DNA of 64,000 bases from Ruminococcus sp. (GTDB lineage: Bacteria; Bacillota; Clostridia; Oscillospirales; Acutalibacteraceae): NCBI GenBank assembly GCA_022768065.1, contig JALELS010000023.1, positions 1 through 64,000 on the forward strand. The letters are read 5' to 3'. Position numbers and translations under genes: made by a program. The notes below the pieces were generated by a model that made no database searches, was not told the DNA's origin, and worked only from the letters and a program-made list of their open reading frames with translations. Shown one piece after another: positions 3,831 to 16,763 of this stretch; position 1 is the stretch's first letter; each line of letters opens with the position of its first letter.

Positions 3831-6545
3831 TCAGTCCTTTATTTCATCAAAACCGAATGCGCGGTTAAAAATCTCGATATTTTTAACGCTTGCACCGCAT
3901 TTGATTTCTCCCGTGGCAATATCGGAGCCCGCAAGTCTTGCGTCGTAGCCCGAACAGTCGAGTTTGCCGTCCGTATAGAGCTTAATCATACCGTTTCTTT
4001 CGCGCAAGGCGTATACCTTTACATTGTCTCTGCCTGCGATTACGGTATCGGATTTTGCCTTAATTCCCTTAACGTCGAATACAAGCTTGCCGTTTGCGGC
4101 AAAAAGGCTCATATCTCTGCCGCCGAGAAGTATCATACCGTCTGTGGGAACACCCGAAAGCGTCAGCCTAAGAGCAAAGTCACCGCGCCCCGAAACGCCG
4201 TAGGTTACAGGTATACAGCCGTTTTTGAAATATGTTACCGGTACTTTTTCGGAAAGAGCGTTGCCGTAAATATCTTTAACATCTATATCTATATCAAGCT
4301 TCTGTAAATTTTTGCACTCGGCAGGCAAATATACTCTGACATCGCTGTAATTAGCCCGAAGCTCTTTTTTAAGAGCCGCGCCGTCAAGTGTAAAGGTACT
4401 CATATTTACAGCTATGTGACTGTTAAATCTGAATTCAACGGTCTTTTCGTCGATGAACTTTGCCTCTGTAAGCTTTACCGGGGCTGTATTTTCGTTTGTA
4501 AATTTAAAAATTCGTATTTCATGCGGCTCTAAATCCAACGAAACGGTATCGCCGTATGAGTATTTTCTTTCATCGGGTTTTTCCGTATACGGTAAAACCG
4601 TGACGCACGTCATATTTTCGGCGCCCTCGGCAACTCCTATAATTCTGTCAAGGACAAACGAGAATCTCTGCTTTTTATTCGCCGGATTTCGTACCGAAAC
4701 TATACCGTTTGCGTTTTCCCATGCGGAGTAGCCGTAAACGCTGCCCGTATCGGGGGACTCGCCTATCAGCTTTGAATTTCGCAATATATTGAAATTTTCC
4801 CTGATAAACGACAAAACATCGGCATTGATAAGCCACATATCGGGCGTAAACAGGTTAAAGCTGTAATAAAGCTCCCAAAATGCGGTTCCGCGCGTTGATA
4901 TCATATACATATATTTGCGGAATTCCTCGTCCGTCATATGAATCTTTGCGGAATTTCCGTAAATAGGCTCGTGGTTATACATATTTGACAGCGGGAACTG
5001 ATATTGTCTTTTTCTGTGGAAGTCAAAATATTTTGAATCGCGGTATGTAAGCATTTTATCGATATCACTTCCGCAGAGCTTTTCGCCGTCGGTTGTTTTA
5101 TCTATAAAACCTATGTCGCCGCTGTTTTGCATCCAAAAGCTCTCGCTGTACATAAGATGCCACGGACTTGCGTTGCAATAGCTTGTCTGGTTAATCCAAA
5201 GGTCCTTGCCCTCTTTTTCGCGGAGAAGGTGCATTTTTTCAAATATATCCGTCCAGTTTTCCCAGCAGTCCGTAAAGCAGTACATACCGTGGTTTCCGCC
5301 TACGGGGTGACCGTGATGCTTATTTTTACACGACTTCAGGAGAAATCCGTCGAGTTTCCAGTAATTGATGTCGAATTTTTCCATGCAATCGGTGAAGAAA
5401 TCGAGTACATTTTTTGTGTATCGGTGATCAGCCACGCACACATCGCGGCTCTGCCTGTTATAACCGCCCTTGCCGGAGCGCTCCATTCTTCTGCCGAACC
5501 TGTCGGTTTTCAGGTTATAACCGCCGCGAGGTCCGAGCCAAAGCCCGAACTCCGACGAAAACTTTTTGCTGAGCGCAGAGCTCTCATAGAGTTCATTGGG
5601 GAATTTATCGTTGAAACACCAAAAATCCTTATCGTAATCAACCCAGCCGTCGTCCACGACATAAGAATTGAGAGGCGGTACGCCGGCGCTCGAAAGCCCC
5701 TTTTCTATTTCAAAAAACGAGTCGCGGATATTTTCGCTTGTTATATCAAGCATATGGTCGTACCAGGAATTATACTGAGTGCGAAGATAAATCGGTTTTG
5801 CGATGCCCTTGATATATTCGAGAAAGTCCGCTCTGACAACCTCCATATCAAAGCTGCGCGCCGCACCGCTCACAGCAGGGTGCGAAACGTAAACTTCCTT
5901 GCCTTTTGACAGCTCGTGCAGATTTTTGCCGGCATAATACCTTATGTGCGCCGTTTCATCTTCTATATTATTGTCGGTAGTCGGAAATTCACAGCCGAAA
6001 TACATACCGTTTATATAAATAGGTTGACCGAGAGCGGTCTGAAACTCCGACAGATACGCCTTTTCCATATCGGGTCTTGAAAAGCGCATTTTCACATCGT
6101 CGCCGAGCGCGAGATATTCAAGGTCAATATAATCGATAAACAAATTGTCGGGATTGCTTGACGATACGGTAACATATTTTCTGATGACGGGATCCGAGTC
6201 CCTCGCCTCAAATATCACCTGCACAAATACGTCAGAAGAGTGAATACGGTACGGCTCAAAGCAAAATACGGCTTTTTTAACCGCCCCCTCCTCTTTCAGT
6301 TCCGTGCTTTTCAGCTTACATTCGGAGGACAATATTTTGCCCTTGCCGAATATGCCCTTTTTATAGGATATTATGAATTCCTCGGAGCCGCCCGACGGAG
6401 CAAATGAAGTTTCGGTCATTCGCCTGTTGACTATGCGAACGGTACGCAGAGTTTTACCCGATGTAGATATTTCACGCACCGTATTTTCGTTTCCTATGTA
6501 TACTGTCTCTTCCTCAGAAGAGACAAAAGCCGTATTTTTATTCAT
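3831..6545 (-). CDS. GH36-like alpha-galactosidase/alpha-N-acetylgalactosaminidase with LamG-like C-terminus
   Basis: 904 residues, no signal peptide. An N-terminal beta-sandwich precedes a barrel with the GH36/GH27-clan signatures YVVDDGW (about 295-301), YWKLDG (nucleophile candidate D399) and SGDIGF (acid/base candidate D477). From about residue 760 a concanavalin/LamG-like sandwich follows, as in some large clostridial alpha-N-acetylgalactosaminidases. Second gene of the operon, 42 bases after the C_GCAxxG protein, ribosome site GAGAG. Function is inferred as release of terminal alpha-galactosyl or alpha-GalNAc residues from imported glycans or glycopeptides. Family call is firm; substrate is open. 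Confidence 0.75.
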   Translation of the reverse strand: MNKNTAFVSSEEETVYIGNENTVREISTSGKTLRTVRIVNRRMTETSFAPSGGSEEFIISYKKGIFGKGKILSSECKLKSTELKEEGAVKKAVFCFEPYRIHSSDVFVQVIFEARDSDPVIRKYVTVSSSNPDNLFIDYIDLEYLALGDDVKMRFSRPDMEKAYLSEFQTALGQPIYINGMYFGCEFPTTDNNIEDETAHIRYYAGKNLHELSKGKEVYVSHPAVSGAARSFDMEVVRADFLEYIKGIAKPIYLRTQYNSWYDHMLDITSENIRDSFFEIEKGLSSAGVPPLNSYVVDDGWVDYDKDFWCFNDKFPNELYESSALSKKFSSEFGLWLGPRGGYNLKTDRFGRRMERSGKGGYNRQSRDVCVADHRYTKNVLDFFTDCMEKFDINYWKLDGFLLKSCKNKHHGHPVGGNHGMYCFTDCWENWTDIFEKMHLLREKEGKDLWINQTSYCNASPWHLMYSESFWMQNSGDIGFIDKTTDGEKLCGSDIDKMLTYRDSKYFDFHRKRQYQFPLSNMYNHEPIYGNSAKIHMTDEEFRKYMYMISTRGTAFWELYYSFNLFTPDMWLINADVLSFIRENFNILRNSKLIGESPDTGSVYGYSAWENANGIVSVRNPANKKQRFSFVLDRIIGVAEGAENMTCVTVLPYTEKPDERKYSYGDTVSLDLEPHEIRIFKFTNENTAPVKLTEAKFIDEKTVEFRFNSHIAVNMSTFTLDGAALKKELRANYSDVRVYLPAECKNLQKLDIDIDVKDIYGNALSEKVPVTYFKNGCIPVTYGVSGRGDFALRLTLSGVPTDGMILLGGRDMSLFAANGKLVFDVKGIKAKSDTVIAGRDNVKVYALRERNGMIKLYTDGKLDCSGYDARLAGSDIATGEIKCGASVKNIEIFNRAFGFDEIKD

Positions 6546-6587
6546 AAAAGAACTCTCTTTCGTTTTTTGTGTTGTACCGTTGCTTGA

Positions 6588-7040
6588 CTATTCCGAAAAA
6601 ATCACTTTTTCCGTAGCTCTGACGGCGTCCTCAACTATTTTGGCGCACGGGCGCTTTTTATAATATGCCGCCGTGCGTTTTTCCGCTTCGGGGGAAACGG
6701 CAGTGCCTTTTGAAAGACCCAAAAGTTCGCGGCAGATTATGGACGGATTTGTCTTTTTAAATTCTGCGGCAATTTCCTGAACCTTTTTATACGTATAGGA
6801 TTTTGCCTCTCTGTTTTCGCCCGTATCGTCGCCGTATACCATACCTGCAACCATAGCCGCTCCGCACATAGCTCCGCAGACCTCCCTCATTCTGCCGACG
6901 CCGCCGCCGAGACCCGACGCAACCTTGAGAGCCGTTTTTTCATCCATTCCGAATTTGTCGCAAAACGCCGCAAAAACAGCTTGCGAGCAGTTAAACCCTT
7001 TACCGAAAAGCTCCGCGGCACGCTCTGTATAAACAGACAT
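6588..7040 (-). CDS. C_GCAxxG_C_C family protein
   Basis: 150 residues with the signature cysteines of this family: FNCSQAV near residue 17, then a glycine-rich GLGGGVGRMREVCGAMCGAAM segment at about 43-63 and a later Cys in IICREL. The family is widespread in anaerobes and is suspected to bind a redox cofactor or metal, but has no established function. It is the first gene of the glycosidase-kinase operon and follows its promoter directly. Why a redox-type protein leads a sugar operon is unclear. Confidence 0.85.
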   Translation of the reverse strand: MSVYTERAAELFGKGFNCSQAVFAAFCDKFGMDEKTALKVASGLGGGVGRMREVCGAMCGAAMVAGMVYGDDTGENREAKSYTYKKVQEIAAEFKKTNPSIICRELLGLSKGTAVSPEAEKRTAAYYKKRPCAKIVEDAVRATEKVIFSE

Positions 7041-7132
7041 AAATCATCACCCAATCTTTAGTTTCGTCGCATTAAACCGAGTGTTACAGCCACGCGGTAA
7101 CACCGATAAAAGTTTTATACACAATTTATATT

Positions 7133-7161
7133 ATTTTAACATAAACAGTCTTTATAAACAA
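7133..7161 (-). promoter_or_regulatory. Promoter of the glycosidase-kinase operon
   Basis: Minus strand: TTGTTT, 17-base spacer, TAAAAT. Downstream, the leader holds a small hairpin GTGTTAC/GTAACAC (7081-7103) that could be an operator or an RNA structure. Confidence 0.55.
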
Positions 7162-7234
7162 CATATTTTATAAACCGAGGGCAAAAATCCGCCGATTTTT
7201 CGTCAAAACGCCGCGTTAAAGCTCACATAATCTA

Positions 7235-7263
7235 TTGCACAAAATCGAAAATGTGTGTATAAT
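7235..7263 (+). promoter_or_regulatory. Promoter of ilvE
   Basis: TTGCAC, 17-base spacer, perfect TATAAT. The start codon follows 35 bases downstream, so the leader is short and no T-box or other riboswitch fits in it. Confidence 0.8.
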
Positions 7264-7297
7264 TAATAAAAATACAAATTACGAAAGAAGTAATACT

Positions 7298-8320
7298 ATG
7301 GCGAAGAAAAATATTGACTGGGGTTCAATAGGCTTCAGCTATATCCCCACAGACAAAAGATATGTTGCCAACTTTAAAGACGGCAAATGGGAGGGCGGAC
7401 TTACCTCCGACCCCAACGTCGTTATCAATGAGTGTGCAGGCGTTCTTCAGTACTCGCAGTCTTGCTTTGAGGGTCTTAAAGCGTACACAACGGAAGACGG
7501 CAGAACGGTATGCTTCCGCCCCGACCTTAACGCCGCAAGAATGAAATCATCATGCGAGCGCCTTAAAATGCCCGTATTCCCCGAAGATAAATTCGTAGAG
7601 GCTGTCAAAGAAGTAGTCAAAGCAAATATCGACTATGTACCCCCCTACGGTTCGGGCGCAACACTTTACATAAGACCGTATATGTTCGGCTCAAATCCGG
7701 TTATCGGCGTTAAGCCTGCCGACGAATATCAGTTCCGTATATTTGTAACTCCGGTAGGTCCTTACTTTAAGGGCGGCGCAAAGCCCATTACCATTCGTGT
7801 AACCGACCTTGACCGTGCAGCCCCCAGAGGAACCGGTCATATCAAAGCAGGTCTTAACTACGCAATGTCGCTCTACAACATAGTTGACGCTCATGAGAAC
7901 GGCTTTGATGAAAACCTCTATGTTGATCCTGCTACAAGAACAAAGGTTGAAGAAACCGGCGGCGCTAACTGCATCTTTGTTGATAAGAACGGCACCGTAG
8001 TCGTTCCGAAGAGCCCGTCAATTCTTCCGTCTATAACCAGACGTTCGCTTGTAACCGTTGCAAAAGATTACCTCGGCCTAAATGTTGAGGAAAGAGAAGT
8101 TTACCTCAGCGAGCTTTCCGATTTTGCAGAGATGGGTCTTTGCGGAACCGCTGCCGTTATATCGCCCATAGGTAAGGTATACGACCACGGCAAGGAAATT
8201 TGCTTCCCGTCGGGTATGGATGAGATGGGGCCGACCATCAAGAAGCTTTACGATACTCTCACCGGAATTCAGATGGGCAGAATTGAAGCTCCCGAAGGCT
8301 GGATAGTTGAAATTAAATAA
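7298..8320 (+). CDS. ilvE: Branched-chain amino acid aminotransferase
   Basis: 340 residues, class IV PLP aminotransferase. It transfers the amino group between glutamate and the keto acids of valine, leucine and isoleucine. The PLP lysine is K183 in GHIKAGLNYA; other family blocks are YSQSCFEGLKAY (51-63) and RPDLNAARM (74-82). I chose the ATG at 7298 after GAAAGAAG. An in-frame upstream start at 7235 would place the coding region on top of the -35 box. The gene stands alone between its own promoter and terminator. Confidence 0.93.
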   Translation: MAKKNIDWGSIGFSYIPTDKRYVANFKDGKWEGGLTSDPNVVINECAGVLQYSQSCFEGLKAYTTEDGRTVCFRPDLNAARMKSSCERLKMPVFPEDKFVEAVKEVVKANIDYVPPYGSGATLYIRPYMFGSNPVIGVKPADEYQFRIFVTPVGPYFKGGAKPITIRVTDLDRAAPRGTGHIKAGLNYAMSLYNIVDAHENGFDENLYVDPATRTKVEETGGANCIFVDKNGTVVVPKSPSILPSITRRSLVTVAKDYLGLNVEEREVYLSELSDFAEMGLCGTAAVISPIGKVYDHGKEICFPSGMDEMGPTIKKLYDTLTGIQMGRIEAPEGWIVEIK

Positions 8321-8340
8321 GCTTATACAAATACAAAAAA

Positions 8341-8372
8341 TGCTGTGGAACATACGTTTCACAGCATTTTTT
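8341..8372 (+). terminator. Terminator of ilvE
   Basis: Stem TGCTGTG/CACAGCA (8341-8347 with 8360-8366) followed by six T, 20 bases after the stop codon. Confidence 0.85.
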
Positions 8373-8461
8373 ATGTTTGCTCAAGATTCGGTCACTGAAT
8401 ATAATCCTCAATAAGGATAAGAAAAAACAACCGCAAAAGCATAATCCGCAAAAAAGCACAT

Positions 8462-8496
8462 AAAAAGGACTGTAAAAGACGAGCTTTTACAGTCCT
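8462..8496 (-). terminator. Terminator of the V-ATPase operon
   Basis: Minus strand: perfect 13-bp stem AGGACTGTAAAAG/CTTTTACAGTCCT with a 5-base loop, followed by T5. It lies just after the subunit D stop. Confidence 0.88.
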
Positions 8497-8502
8497 CAAA
8501 TT

Positions 8503-9129
8503 TTATTTTGCCTCGCGTTTTTTCTCCTCTTTTTGATTTTTAACGGCTTTAAGCCTTGTAAAATCTTCACGCTCTTTTTCCTCGAGTGCTTCGGAGATGT
8601 ACTTAATCGTACCCGTAAACTGAGGTATCATTATGTTGTTTAACGCGTTGGCACGCTTTTGCGTTTTTTTGACTGCATCCGCAAGCCGGTAAATCGAAGC
8701 CTCGGTTTCGGCAAGCTTTACGGTCATTTTTTTTGCCTCGTTGAAGTTTATGTAAGCCTCGTCAAGGTGGGAGTTTGTCGAATTAAAGCCGAAATACGGC
8801 ATCAGCTTGCTGCTTTCAAGCGATATTTTCGGTATCTCAACACCCATTACGCTGCGAAAATCAAGGGAAAGCCCGTTATCAACGGGTATGGTTCTTGCAA
8901 AATTACCGCAAACGCCAAGCGTAATATTGGCAAGCTTCAAGGACGAATAAGCCTTGTCGTATACTGCGTTTATATTTGCCTCGACTTCCTTTGCTTCGCT
9001 TATAAGCTGCATCATCTCACGAACAAGAATGTTACGTTTTCTGTCCATCAGCTCATAGCCGAGCTTGGCTAAATCGAGAGATTTCTGCGTCGCCATCAAA
9101 TTGGCTTTTGTCGGGAACACCTGTGCCAT
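8503..9129 (-). CDS. ntpD: V/A-type ATPase subunit D (central rotor shaft)
   Basis: 208 residues, mostly helical. The N-terminus (FPTKANLMATQKSLDLAKLGYELMDRKRNILVREM, split here only by recognition) and the mid segment with PYFGFNSTNSHLDEAY are typical of subunit D, the coiled-coil shaft that turns inside the A3B3 head. The C-terminus is a short lysine/glutamate-rich tail. It is the last gene of the operon, 33 bases after subunit B, with ribosome site AGGAGG, and is followed by the operon terminator. Confidence 0.93.
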   Translation of the reverse strand: MAQVFPTKANLMATQKSLDLAKLGYELMDRKRNILVREMMQLISEAKEVEANINAVYDKAYSSLKLANITLGVCGNFARTIPVDNGLSLDFRSVMGVEIPKISLESSKLMPYFGFNSTNSHLDEAYINFNEAKKMTVKLAETEASIYRLADAVKKTQKRANALNNIMIPQFTGTIKYISEALEEKEREDFTRLKAVKNQKEEKKREAK

Positions 9130-12932: not shown

Positions 12933-13238
12933 TTAAATCTTAATACCGATGGCGTCGCGGATATATTCGGTAATGGAATCACGGTTTCTGCCGTTTCCGT
13001 CGCCGTCGGGAATTGTAACAAGCAGCGGCCTGTTGCCCTGCTTTAATTTTTTCACCGTTTCGGGGCAAAGCTCGGCAACGCCTGCGGTTATAAGCAGTAT
13101 GCCGATGTCTTCCGCAGACAAAGCCTTTTTGAAAGCCTTTTCGGCTTCATCGCGCGAAGTCACCCGCTTTGCTTCAATTCCGGCAAGACGCATACCGATC
13201 ATAGCGTCGGTATTGTCGCTTATCAAGAAGAATTTCAT
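12933..13238 (-). CDS. ntpG: V/A-type ATPase subunit F (central stalk)
   Basis: 101 residues starting MKFFLISDNTDAMIGMRLAGI, a Rossmann-like fold typical of subunit F, which binds the D shaft. I chose the ATG at 13238 with AAAGGG upstream rather than the longer frame from 13301, whose first 21 residues do not look like the family. It stands between K and E, not between C and A as in Enterococcus. Confidence 0.9.
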   Translation of the reverse strand: MKFFLISDNTDAMIGMRLAGIEAKRVTSRDEAEKAFKKALSAEDIGILLITAGVAELCPETVKKLKQGNRPLLVTIPDGDGNGRNRDSITEYIRDAIGIKI

Positions 13239-13852: not shown

Positions 13853-15790
13853 TTAATTTTGCGCGTTTAATTTTATCGGCTTGAAAGCCGTTCCTCCGCC
13901 CTCATAGAAGCGGCTGAACATCTCGTAATATTCAAGACGAAGTGCCTGTATGCCGGTCAAAAGACCTTCAAGCGCAATGACAAGAATATTGCCGAGGATG
14001 ATAACAAAGATGTTCTCGTGTGCACCGGCGAGTGAGAATACAACCATCATCATACCTGCATGGACAAGTACGAATGCGCCGACACGAAGGAAGGATACCG
14101 TGTTGCTCAAATACGAAAGCACATATTCGAGAAGCTCAAACACATTTTGAAGTATGAAGTCCCCGATGCTCTCCGGCTTCCAATCAGGCTTCCTTTCGAT
14201 AAGACCTATCGGGATATCCTTTATCATAAGCAGAACCGCCGTTACCGCAAGCGTTACGGCGCATACCTTATTCGGTACGGGAGACGGACCGCCCATAAAG
14301 CCGGAAGCGAGATTTACGCCGGACAGATACATCAAAAGTCCCGTAAGTCCGTTTTGACTAAACAGCGCTTCGCCGAACTGTTTACGCTTTATGCATGCGT
14401 AAATATTAAGCAGCATTGCAACTACCATAAGCCCTATGCCTATACCGATAGCTATCAAAAGAACCGTATTTACGCTTTCCATTACGGTCATCGGCTTGCC
14501 CTTCCAGCCGAGAGCATGGTAAACGGGATCGAGCATATGCTCATATCCGAACACGCTGCCGAACATAAAGCCGAAGAACATCGACGAAATTCCGCACGGA
14601 ATAAGTATTTTGCCGAGCTTTATCTTTTTCTTTGCCCACATAAATATGCCTATGAGCATTAAGACGAAGCCCTGACCGAGATCGCCGAACATCATACCGA
14701 AAAGTATTGTATATGTTATAGCCACGAACCCGGTAATATCTATATCGTCATACGACGGTGTGCCGTACATATCGACATAAAATCTGTATGGATCAACAAA
14801 AGCTTTAAACAGCTTCGGCGTCTTTTTGAGTTTAACCGGAACCACGGTCTTGCCGTCATGCGGAGGCTCGCTTATCTCGACTGATATTTCATCGATATTT
14901 TTAAGCTCCTTTTTAAACTTCTTTTCGCTGCCCTCCGGAATAAACCCGGTAAACATAAAGTACTTGTCATTGTGCAGCGCGTAAGAGCGGAGCTCATAAA
15001 GCGAATTCTGATATACAAGATTTGAATAAATCTTGTTGCAATGGTCGTGCTCTGTCTGCCAAAGCTCTCGGATTTTATCGTCCGTCTCTTTTATCTGAGA
15101 CTTGATTATCTCAATGCTCTTTTTAATCTGCTCGATTACTTCCTCAACGGTGCCTGCCGCTCCGGGAACCTCAAACGGTTCAAACAAGAGGAAAGCAAAT
15201 ATACCGTCAATCTCGTTCACCTTGTCACTCGGTGCAAAATATGCGCCCCAATAATCCGTTTTATCCTCGGAGCAAGGATAAAACATAACGTACGGATTAT
15301 CTTTGAACACCGTCTTCAGCTTTTCGTAGCTCTCCTTCGGCATATGACCGAAACGTATTTTGACGAATTCGCATTGCGATACCTGGTCAAGGTCAATACC
15401 AAGGCCCTTAAAGTGCGAATATTTTTCAATACCGCCCTCGCATACCGCCTTTTGGTCGAGCAACGAGCTTCGCTGCTCATAAAGTCCTATAACCTTTTTT
15501 TCAACGTCCTTAAGATAAGACGCGTCCTTTTCGTCAACGTCCGAATCGCTTTCTTCTATGCTTTTAAATTCGAGATCAAATTTTGCAGCTTTCGCTATAT
15601 CACGAAGCTCCGACAGCTCACCGGCATACGGATTGTCATCAACAAACGGTACGAATCCCATTGACGAAGATATGTATTTCGCCGCGGAATCCGGATGAAA
15701 ACACTCGCTCTCGCAAAGCCTTGCACTCAAGTCATAAAGCTTTGTAAGGCTGCCGCTTATTTTGACAAGCTTCATCTTTTCGATAGCCAT
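13853..15790 (-). CDS. ntpI: V/A-type ATPase subunit I (membrane stator)
   Basis: 645 residues. The cytoplasmic arm (about 1-330, partly coiled coil, with CEFVKIRFGHMPKE) is followed by a membrane half with about seven to eight helices. These include GMMFGDLGQGF and a C-terminal LSYLSNTVSFLRVGAF helix that carries the arginine facing the rotor ring. Its role is to anchor the peripheral stalks and form the ion half-channels. It is preceded 37 bases upstream by I-prime, a soluble relative of its own arm. Confidence 0.95.
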   Translation of the reverse strand: MAIEKMKLVKISGSLTKLYDLSARLCESECFHPDSAAKYISSSMGFVPFVDDNPYAGELSELRDIAKAAKFDLEFKSIEESDSDVDEKDASYLKDVEKKVIGLYEQRSSLLDQKAVCEGGIEKYSHFKGLGIDLDQVSQCEFVKIRFGHMPKESYEKLKTVFKDNPYVMFYPCSEDKTDYWGAYFAPSDKVNEIDGIFAFLLFEPFEVPGAAGTVEEVIEQIKKSIEIIKSQIKETDDKIRELWQTEHDHCNKIYSNLVYQNSLYELRSYALHNDKYFMFTGFIPEGSEKKFKKELKNIDEISVEISEPPHDGKTVVPVKLKKTPKLFKAFVDPYRFYVDMYGTPSYDDIDITGFVAITYTILFGMMFGDLGQGFVLMLIGIFMWAKKKIKLGKILIPCGISSMFFGFMFGSVFGYEHMLDPVYHALGWKGKPMTVMESVNTVLLIAIGIGIGLMVVAMLLNIYACIKRKQFGEALFSQNGLTGLLMYLSGVNLASGFMGGPSPVPNKVCAVTLAVTAVLLMIKDIPIGLIERKPDWKPESIGDFILQNVFELLEYVLSYLSNTVSFLRVGAFVLVHAGMMMVVFSLAGAHENIFVIILGNILVIALEGLLTGIQALRLEYYEMFSRFYEGGGTAFKPIKLNAQN

Positions 15791-15827: not shown

Positions 15828-16763
15828 TCAGGATACCTTAATCTTGACTGTTTCCGATTCTGTATAAAATGCACCGTCTATCTCTTTGAGCTTTTGCTCC
15901 GTCTCGTCCTTTGTTGACAGCGGAAGCAAACCGCACAGGATATACGAGTTATTGTTTAAAAGTCCGTTCCTTAATATTTCAAATTTTTCGGACTCGTTCA
16001 CGAGCGTATAGTAAAGTGAATTGCAAAGCTCGAAATGCAGTTTAAAGTAATACTCTTCCATTGCCTCGGCTTCAAGTATCTGTCGGTTGAGAATTTCGAT
16101 ATTTTTATCTATCTGTTCCTCAACCTTTTCGGCTTCGCCCGACGCCGACGGAATATTTATCGGCTCAAACAGCATCGACGCAAAAACGGAATCGACGCGT
16201 TCAAAATCCGACCTCGGCACAAGATAAATGCCCCAGCAATCCGTATCGCTCTCATATGATTTAAAAAATTCTATATACGGGTCGTTTTTATGTATTTCAA
16301 GAAGTCTTTTAAGACAATCCTTCGGCATATGACCGAACCGCGCCTTAACAAATTCACACTCGGTGAGAGTCTGAATGTCTACGGGGAGACCGCTGAACAG
16401 GCGGATTCGTTTCTTGCCCTCCTCGCACTCCTCCTTTTGCTCAAGCAGGAGCTGCTTATCACGTTTAAACTTCTTGTATTTATTGTATATCTCTTCGGTC
16501 TTTGCGTCAAAGTCCTGCGGCAAATCCTGCTTTTTTCCCGGCAAGGTGTATTTCCAGCCGGCATATTTAGCCACAGAAGTAAGCCGCTTTATCGGTTTTT
16601 CGTAAGGGTCGTCGCCCTCGACGCGCCTGAAATCAAGCGCAGCCTCATTTTTGGTCGCGGGAGCTTCGCTTTTGAAATTACCCGACAGCAGAACCGCCAA
16701 AACATCGCGGAGACTGTCTTCGCCGCAAAGCACACGGACTTTTTTAAACTTCTCTTTCTTCAT
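15828..16763 (-). CDS. Membrane-less paralogue of V-ATPase subunit I (I-prime)
   Basis: 311 residues, no membrane helices. From about residue 85 to the end it runs colinear with the cytoplasmic arm of the adjacent subunit I. Shared blocks are CEFVKARFGHMPK (CEFVKIRFGHMPK in I), DCWGIYLVPRSD (DYWGAYFAPSD), LFEPINIPSASGEAE (LFEPFEVPGAAGTVE), and IDKNIEILNRQI (IKKSIEIIKSQI). It ends just where the membrane half of I would begin. The frame is intact, and its ATG shares one base with the stop of subunit C (TAATG), so it is translated as part of the operon. Inferred: a second collar or stalk-capping piece, or a regulator of assembly. I know of no assigned function. Confidence 0.85.
   Translation of the reverse strand: MKKEKFKKVRVLCGEDSLRDVLAVLLSGNFKSEAPATKNEAALDFRRVEGDDPYEKPIKRLTSVAKYAGWKYTLPGKKQDLPQDFDAKTEEIYNKYKKFKRDKQLLLEQKEECEEGKKRIRLFSGLPVDIQTLTECEFVKARFGHMPKDCLKRLLEIHKNDPYIEFFKSYESDTDCWGIYLVPRSDFERVDSVFASMLFEPINIPSASGEAEKVEEQIDKNIEILNRQILEAEAMEEYYFKLHFELCNSLYYTLVNESEKFEILRNGLLNNNSYILCGLLPLSTKDETEQKLKEIDGAFYTESETVKIKVS

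Follow-up and report, generated by a model that had tools for sequence, protein, structure and literature searches.

A soluble copy of the subunit I arm in a clostridial V-ATPase operon as a candidate additional dock for a peripheral stalk

Questions of stiffness, coupling and rotor alignment in rotary ATPases are linked to the number of peripheral stalks and to whatever determines it. A-ATPases are reported to have two stalks and V-ATPases three, the third touching only the head of subunit C (PMC6131620); more specifically, the Thermus and Enterococcus enzymes are described with two stalks and the eukaryotic enzyme with three. The two globular subdomains of the Thermus arm are reported to bind the proximal and distal EG stalks (PMC7367684), and each end of the eukaryotic arm to meet one stalk, with eight transmembrane helices in the membrane domain of subunit I/a (PMC10313074). 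Docking of the third EG stalk in eukaryotes is attributed to subunit C (PMC6131620, PMC3470569), and in vitro the yeast distal lobe is reported to bind EG weakly and the head of C to bind it strongly (PMC3470569). In Thermus, the asymmetry of the two stalks has been linked to distortion (PMC5758568); for Enterococcus hirae, the rotor's off-axis position has been linked to two stalks plus a d/c-ring mismatch, as opposed to the symmetric three in eukaryotes (PMC10382590). In the titles and the beginnings of abstracts of the open-licence literature, we found no description of a short, soluble or duplicated bacterial subunit I, nor of a two-arm or extra-lobe subunit I.

The window analyzed here is a stretch of 64,000 nucleotides from a genome whose genus we took as Candidatus Fimenecus, class Clostridia; the records of this genus are metagenome-assembled or uncultured genomes. 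The V-ATPase operon on its minus strand runs G, C, I', I, K, F, E, A, B, D (Table 1). The original prediction had proposed that I' is a second, membrane-less subunit I and no decaying duplicate, and alignment, hydropathy and dN/dS bear this out. The frame begins with ATG and contains no internal stops, and base 16763 is common to the end of subunit C and the start of I', reading TAATG; both the intact frame and the coupling to subunit C described earlier can be seen in the sequence. A BLASTP comparison with the adjacent subunit I gave 159 bits (E 2e-48) and 98/302 identities (32%), with residues 1-296 of I' placed on residues 1-300 of I. The match to the arm stands as predicted, and its proposed extent of "about 230 residues" was too short, as the 302 columns cover essentially the whole cytoplasmic arm; the likeness of CEFVKARFGHMPK (I') and CEFVKIRFGHMPK (I) that had been quoted is found in this alignment.

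Table 1. Coordinates of the V-ATPase operon genes and of the parts of I' within the window
Feature	Position	Strand	Basis or remark
Subunit G, peripheral stalk coil, 102 aa	17853..18161	-	weak family matches and position
Subunit C (Pfam AC39), eukaryotic d equivalent, 351 aa	16763..17818	-	stop overlaps I' start
I', soluble copy of the subunit I cytoplasmic arm, 311 aa	15828..16763	-	BLASTP, hydropathy, predicted model
I' residues 1-84, N-terminal part of proximal lobe, divergent	16512..16763	-	model
I' residues 85-122, first rod helix (model helix 85-121)	16398..16511	-	
I' residues 123-205, distal lobe, most conserved part	16149..16397	-	model, conservation
CEFVKARFGHMPK in I' distal lobe	16320-16358	-	
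I' residues 206-266, second rod helix (model helix 211-265)	15966..16148	-	
I' residues 267-309, C-terminal part of proximal lobe	15837..15965	-	model
Subunit I, 645 aa, complete	13853..15790	-	arm ~14786-15790, membrane half downstream
Subunit K, proteolipid, 153 aa	13372..13833	-	
Subunit F (presumed)	12933..13238	-	start taken at internal ATG (MKFFLISDN...)
Subunit E, peripheral stalk, 200 aa	12311..12913	-	one operon copy
Subunit A (presumed), catalytic, 587 aa	10551..12314	-	
Subunit B (presumed), 460 aa	9163..10545	-	
Subunit D (presumed), 208 aa	8503..9129	-	

I' has no transmembrane segment, its maximal hydropathy over 19-residue windows being 0.98, compared with 54 windows above 1.6 in I; among 11 I' tested, that of G037 alone has one window just above 1.6. 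The C-terminal membrane domain of the subunit I (a) family is missing, and the 311 residues end before the membrane half would start, in agreement with the earlier claim. At E ≤ 1, exactly two matches were found in the window's own genome, namely I' and I. Chance, frameshift or pseudogene as the origin of I' is ruled out by the BLASTP match, the genome matches and dN/dS. I' was undetected by Pfam V_ATPase_I, and the best of the NCBIfam subunit-I models gave 44.3 bits, far below the cut-off of 670; the window's full-length I also falls below that cut-off (208 of 670) and passes in Pfam (108.8 of 30.7). Proteins of this kind thus pose an annotation issue, as I' is invisible to Pfam and far under the NCBIfam cut-offs.

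As for the remaining operon genes, the names F, A, B and D are those we take to apply. The internal ATG was taken as the start of subunit F because the F subunits of most relatives are 100-103 aa long, and the family matches of subunit G (E 0.0029 and 0.0019) lie below curated cut-offs. In subunit K, approximately 85 residues precede the proteolipid hairpin (Pfam 90-149), comprising by eye two hydrophobic stretches and an Ala/Asp-rich linker; the K subunits of genus relatives are of similar length (131-163 aa). A search for the F-type a subunit (PF00119) gave no match in the window's own genome (0/1; controls 9/14 positive), so the V-ATPase may be its only rotary ATPase, as judged by PF00119 only.

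The predicted model of I' (pLDDT 89.6) has the two-lobed dumbbell form of an I arm. Compared with five orthologues, the window I' is most conserved in its distal lobe (44%), followed by rod 1 (31%), the N-terminal part of the proximal lobe (24%), its C-terminal part (23%) and rod 2 (20%). Ordinary I gives the same regional ranking (distal lobe 73%, elsewhere 43-53%, for the window I against five genus I arms), so conservation of the distal lobe is not specific to I'. We also checked, in 11 I', 17 reference columns kept at ≥90% among 59 I arms. Nine of them, in or beside the distal lobe, were kept in 11/11 I', and distal-lobe columns 180, 194 and 197 as well as column 274 were variable. The proximal-lobe residues Gly13, Phe30, Gly278 and Pro281 were kept in 5, 9, 9 and 9 of the 11, respectively; Gly13 is kept in 58/59 I arms, and the window I' has Cys13.

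In six pairs of near genomes, NG86 dN/dS of I' was 0.198, 0.262, 0.152, 0.169, 0.228 and 0.194, and that of the I arm in the same order 0.034, 0.119, 0.110, 0.094, 0.156 and 0.054; I' was thus the faster by dN in 5/6 pairs and by dN/dS in 6/6. For the more distant pair G748/G713 the values were 0.621 (I') and 0.325 (I arm), and for the window and G002, also more distant, I' gave 0.378 at a dS of 1.96, with the I arm saturated. These data demonstrate that I' is under purifying selection, looser than that on I, and with the intact frame they uphold the statement that it is not a decaying duplicate; nor is it a frameshifted full-length gene.

We surveyed related genomes at several ranks. Among 39 genomes of the genus, 30 have a match and eight have two; in all eight two-match operons (the window and seven others) I' lies between C and I, and C adjoins I in the ten opened of the 22 single-match operons. 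Of the nine genomes without a match, four were re-searched with a profile, and this returned nothing in three and a partial match in a 661-aa frame in G006. As I' is carried by 8/39 genus genomes (30 having any match), the genus as a whole can do without it. Querying with an alignment of nine I' yielded 38 loci, among which eight (L056-L063, corresponding to the seven genus relatives and to G171) have a short I as a separate gene. In the family sample (398 genomes, 216 with a match, 16 with two or more), six have an extra arm or lobe: the window and G171, of another genus, with a separate I'; G118, G299 and G356 (g81) with two arms; and G046 with a doubled lobe. The order sample (394 genomes, 144 with a match) includes separate I' in G000, G038, G171, G748 and G713, a lobe in a loop of the membrane half in 8/9 matching genomes of genus g182 (G758 lacking it), and a doubled lobe in G675 and G444, giving at least 15/144 with an extra arm or lobe among opened loci. 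A second family, that of G748 (197 genomes, 119 with a match), has separate I' in nine genomes of five genera (G748, G1142, G1247, G713, G1256, G1186, G1270, G1151 and G1150), all opened and all in the order C-I'-I, doubled lobes in G675, G1273, G1220 and G1163, and loop lobes in G494, G532, G1163 and, as its only distal lobe, G1179, i.e., an extra arm or lobe in at least 16/119. G1247 has two C-I'-I operons, perhaps via 3% contamination. The family samples overlap with the order sample.

Taken together, separate I' was opened in 18 genomes, the order is C-I'-I in all 18, and subunit I keeps its complete arm in 18/18, which disfavors the suggestion that the soluble protein replaces the arm of I. 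Nor is I' a random duplicate found only here, as the survey found it in many genomes and with several origins: a separate arm recurs in these operons and is under selection. As regards the counting, most second matches in the family follow-up proved to be other full-length I (632-730 aa frames) or arms broken over contig ends or frames; the long frames of G519, G611, G555, G477, G443, G650, G1237, G1185 and G1286 hold one lobe, and the short frames of G184, G970, G780 and G593 run off the contig. The counts exclude the short frames of G245, G147, G173 and G625 and the order-sample second matches of G238, G158 and G073, the latter three lying outside the matches listed, and the weakest lobe calls included are those of G1220 (E 1e-7), G1273 (1.5e-7) and G444 (2.5e-10, 55 residues). 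Some relatives have a second, distinct full-length I (~683-aa frame; e.g., G034:C13:50082-50417 and G035:C4:35373-35711), which suggests a second V-ATPase.

In the class sample (371 genomes, 160 with a match, 147 of these outside the order), an extra lobe was not apparent outside the order among the frames listed, with one oddity. In G1118 (L126:4902-5786, 5792-7615) and G896 (L127:8959-9831, 7528-8946), of another family of the class, the arm seems broken over two genes: a 290-294-aa protein consists of the first arm half and a coil, which shows a weak resemblance to subunit G in one of these genomes (PF03179, E 0.1), and the next gene, I, is without the first arm half, no separate G gene lying just upstream of C. 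The short protein is possibly a half-arm fused to its stalk.

The forms carried within subunit I differ in where the module sits. The proteins of G118, G356 and G299 (945-950 aa) run arm-arm-membrane, the second arm domain scoring E 8e-32 to 8e-27. In g182, I is 769-783 aa long with a second distal lobe at ~545-660 (domain E 2e-10 to 4e-24), bounded by the last hydrophobic segment before it and the first hydrophobic segment after it; a helix count from hydropathy and sequence would place it in the TM6-TM7 loop, and an even-numbered loop of the membrane half should be cytoplasmic because the arm is. In the 910-aa subunit I of G1163 (L160:3631-6363), the arm contains two distal lobes and the same membrane-half loop as in g182 a third. 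In G1179 (L161:6717-8876, minus strand; 719 aa), the arm matches the profile only at 1-113 and 232-312, its distal lobe being missing, and the sole distal lobe lies at 468-569, again in that membrane-half loop. In G1152 (L165:6196-7164, 5214-6326, minus strand), an arm of 322 aa and a membrane half of 370 aa occupy overlapping frames, either because I is genuinely split in two or through a frameshift or an error of assembly.

To trace the origins of these forms, we built two arm trees, one of 76 rows, which leaves out G046, G675 and G444, and one of 69 rows, which lacks six g81 arms, 14 I arms and both G1247 operons and gains 13 second-family rows; their results agree. I' falls into four groups: (i) the window and five Fimenecus genomes (support 100/100); (ii) G001 and G036 (100/100), nested in the Fimenecus set of I (100/99); (iii) G171 beside its own I (100/99); and (iv) the second-family I' (100/100; two rows in the first tree and eight in the second). 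Supported (starred) branches of the 69-row tree force at least four changes (bootstrap range 4-4). A single ancient I' is rejected by AU tests, both for all 11 I' of the first tree in one clade (p 4.7e-87) and for second-family I' together with G171 (p-AU 0.0015). One clade for the eight Fimenecus I' gave p-AU 0.010, a weak rejection, and gene conversion from I could mimic two origins inside Fimenecus; this grouping and that of the second family with G171 were chosen once the first tree had been inspected, which the AU test ignores. The window I' forms a long branch (1.41). For the second family, the branching of I' largely mirrors that of I, the pattern that vertical descent would give. A recent local duplicate is also ruled out, since I' shares 32% identity with the I beside it and clusters with I' from five other genus genomes. 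One origin each was not rejected for loop lobes (p-AU 0.19) or in-arm lobes (p-AU 0.12), each of which may have arisen once. By this count I' has at least four split origins, and the three other forms have at least one each.

We give about an even chance to the reading, drawn from these comparisons, that I' is an additional stator subunit of the V-ATPase that adds at least one distal lobe as an EG stalk dock. It would join the collar between V1 and Vo and be present in the assembled complex, its distal lobe serving as a putative dock for an EG peripheral stalk, and the enzyme would be held more stiffly or acquire a third stalk, which would be placed on the free side of V1; I' would work like eukaryotic subunit C. 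Provided that lobes act as stalk docks, each added lobe supplies a further dock. Counting against this reading, the operon has one E gene and one G gene; moreover, as I' keeps both lobes, there would be four lobes to three AB interfaces, leaving at least one lobe with another job. It also weighs against it that the genus as a whole can do without I', that distal-lobe conservation is not peculiar to I' and three further columns of this lobe vary among I', and that the yeast distal lobe is reported to bind EG weakly in vitro; the reported contact of this lobe with rotor subunit d in isolated Thermus Vo suits a brake equally well. More tentatively, and with somewhat less than even confidence, we propose that the V-ATPases of many Fimenecus-related Clostridia departed from the two-stalk plan of bacteria, a movable lobe having given rise to three-stalk enzymes in parallel to eukaryotic subunit C. 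The distal lobe would have acted as a mobile module, gained on at least four occasions as a separate subunit and otherwise as a duplicate arm, as an insert within the arm or as part of a membrane-half loop; eukaryotic subunit C may itself have come about by a comparable step.

The earlier suggestions had ranged over a stalk cap, an assembly factor and an inhibitor. Comparative data favor a permanent stator part that supplies a lobe for stalk docking, because in relatives this module is covalently built into I; the braking and assembly readings are retained at lower probability. As a brake or regulator, I' would touch the rotor with its lobes at C, which corresponds to d, and would prevent idle rotation or the leakage of ions. 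In isolated Thermus Vo, both arm lobes are reported to touch d and to impede rotation (PMC7367684), the I' gene immediately follows that of subunit C, and the V-ATPase may be the only rotary ATPase of this genome; a reversible brake is nonetheless less natural, though not impossible, where the extra lobe is covalent in I, and several I' have lost proximal-lobe signature residues. We regard this explanation as unlikely. We think it improbable that I' is an assembly factor that binds EG or V1 ahead of docking onto I and is missing from the completed enzyme: its solubility and its position between C and I, directly before I, would suit such a role, but the versions inside subunit I cannot leave the enzyme.

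A further alternative is constructive neutral evolution, whereby duplicates of the arm or lobe were tolerated and some became needed after losses elsewhere, with no function gained. Patchy presence fits this idea (8/39 genus genomes and, within one second-family genus, I' in G1150 and not in G1253), as do the faster evolution of I' relative to I and the case of G1179, in which the loop lobe is kept and the arm's own lobe is gone, i.e., duplication followed by loss of the original. Against it, the whole arm has been retained at one and the same position under purifying selection after each of at least four split origins, with the I arm kept too, and we consider neutral origin rather unlikely. 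Under the stator-subunit reading, the V-ATPase pumps of I'-bearing relatives may be braced differently from the textbook bacterial version. Repeated gain of extra stalk-docking lobes, with close relatives lacking them, makes the stalk question testable within one genus, and a bacterial lineage with extra lobes is a present-day counterpart to how the eukaryotic collar arose.

Among known proteins, a Foldseek comparison of the I' model ranked eukaryotic subunit C (1u7l) 33rd, with E 3e-7 and a weak fit (TM 0.26-0.29, rmsd 13.7), and subunit C was not among the 50 matches listed in a further comparison. A phmmer search of PDB chains to E 10 gave no V-ATPase chain and no sequence match to subunit C, the sole hit being a nucleotidase (E 0.046). 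In general form, the eukaryotic subunit C (Vma5) is a soluble, elongated, two-domain stator protein, and I' is likewise soluble and, in the model, elongated. The closest likeness is to the cytoplasmic arm of subunit I or eukaryotic a (Thermus 6r0z_N; 3rrk), whose two-lobed form is predicted for I' as well; unlike subunit I/a, I' lacks the membrane half and is a separate gene alongside a complete I. The two-arm and extra-lobe subunits I of related Clostridia (G118, G046, g182, G1163 and G1179) bring the same arm or distal-lobe module into the stator within one polypeptide with I, whereas I' supplies it from a gene of its own.
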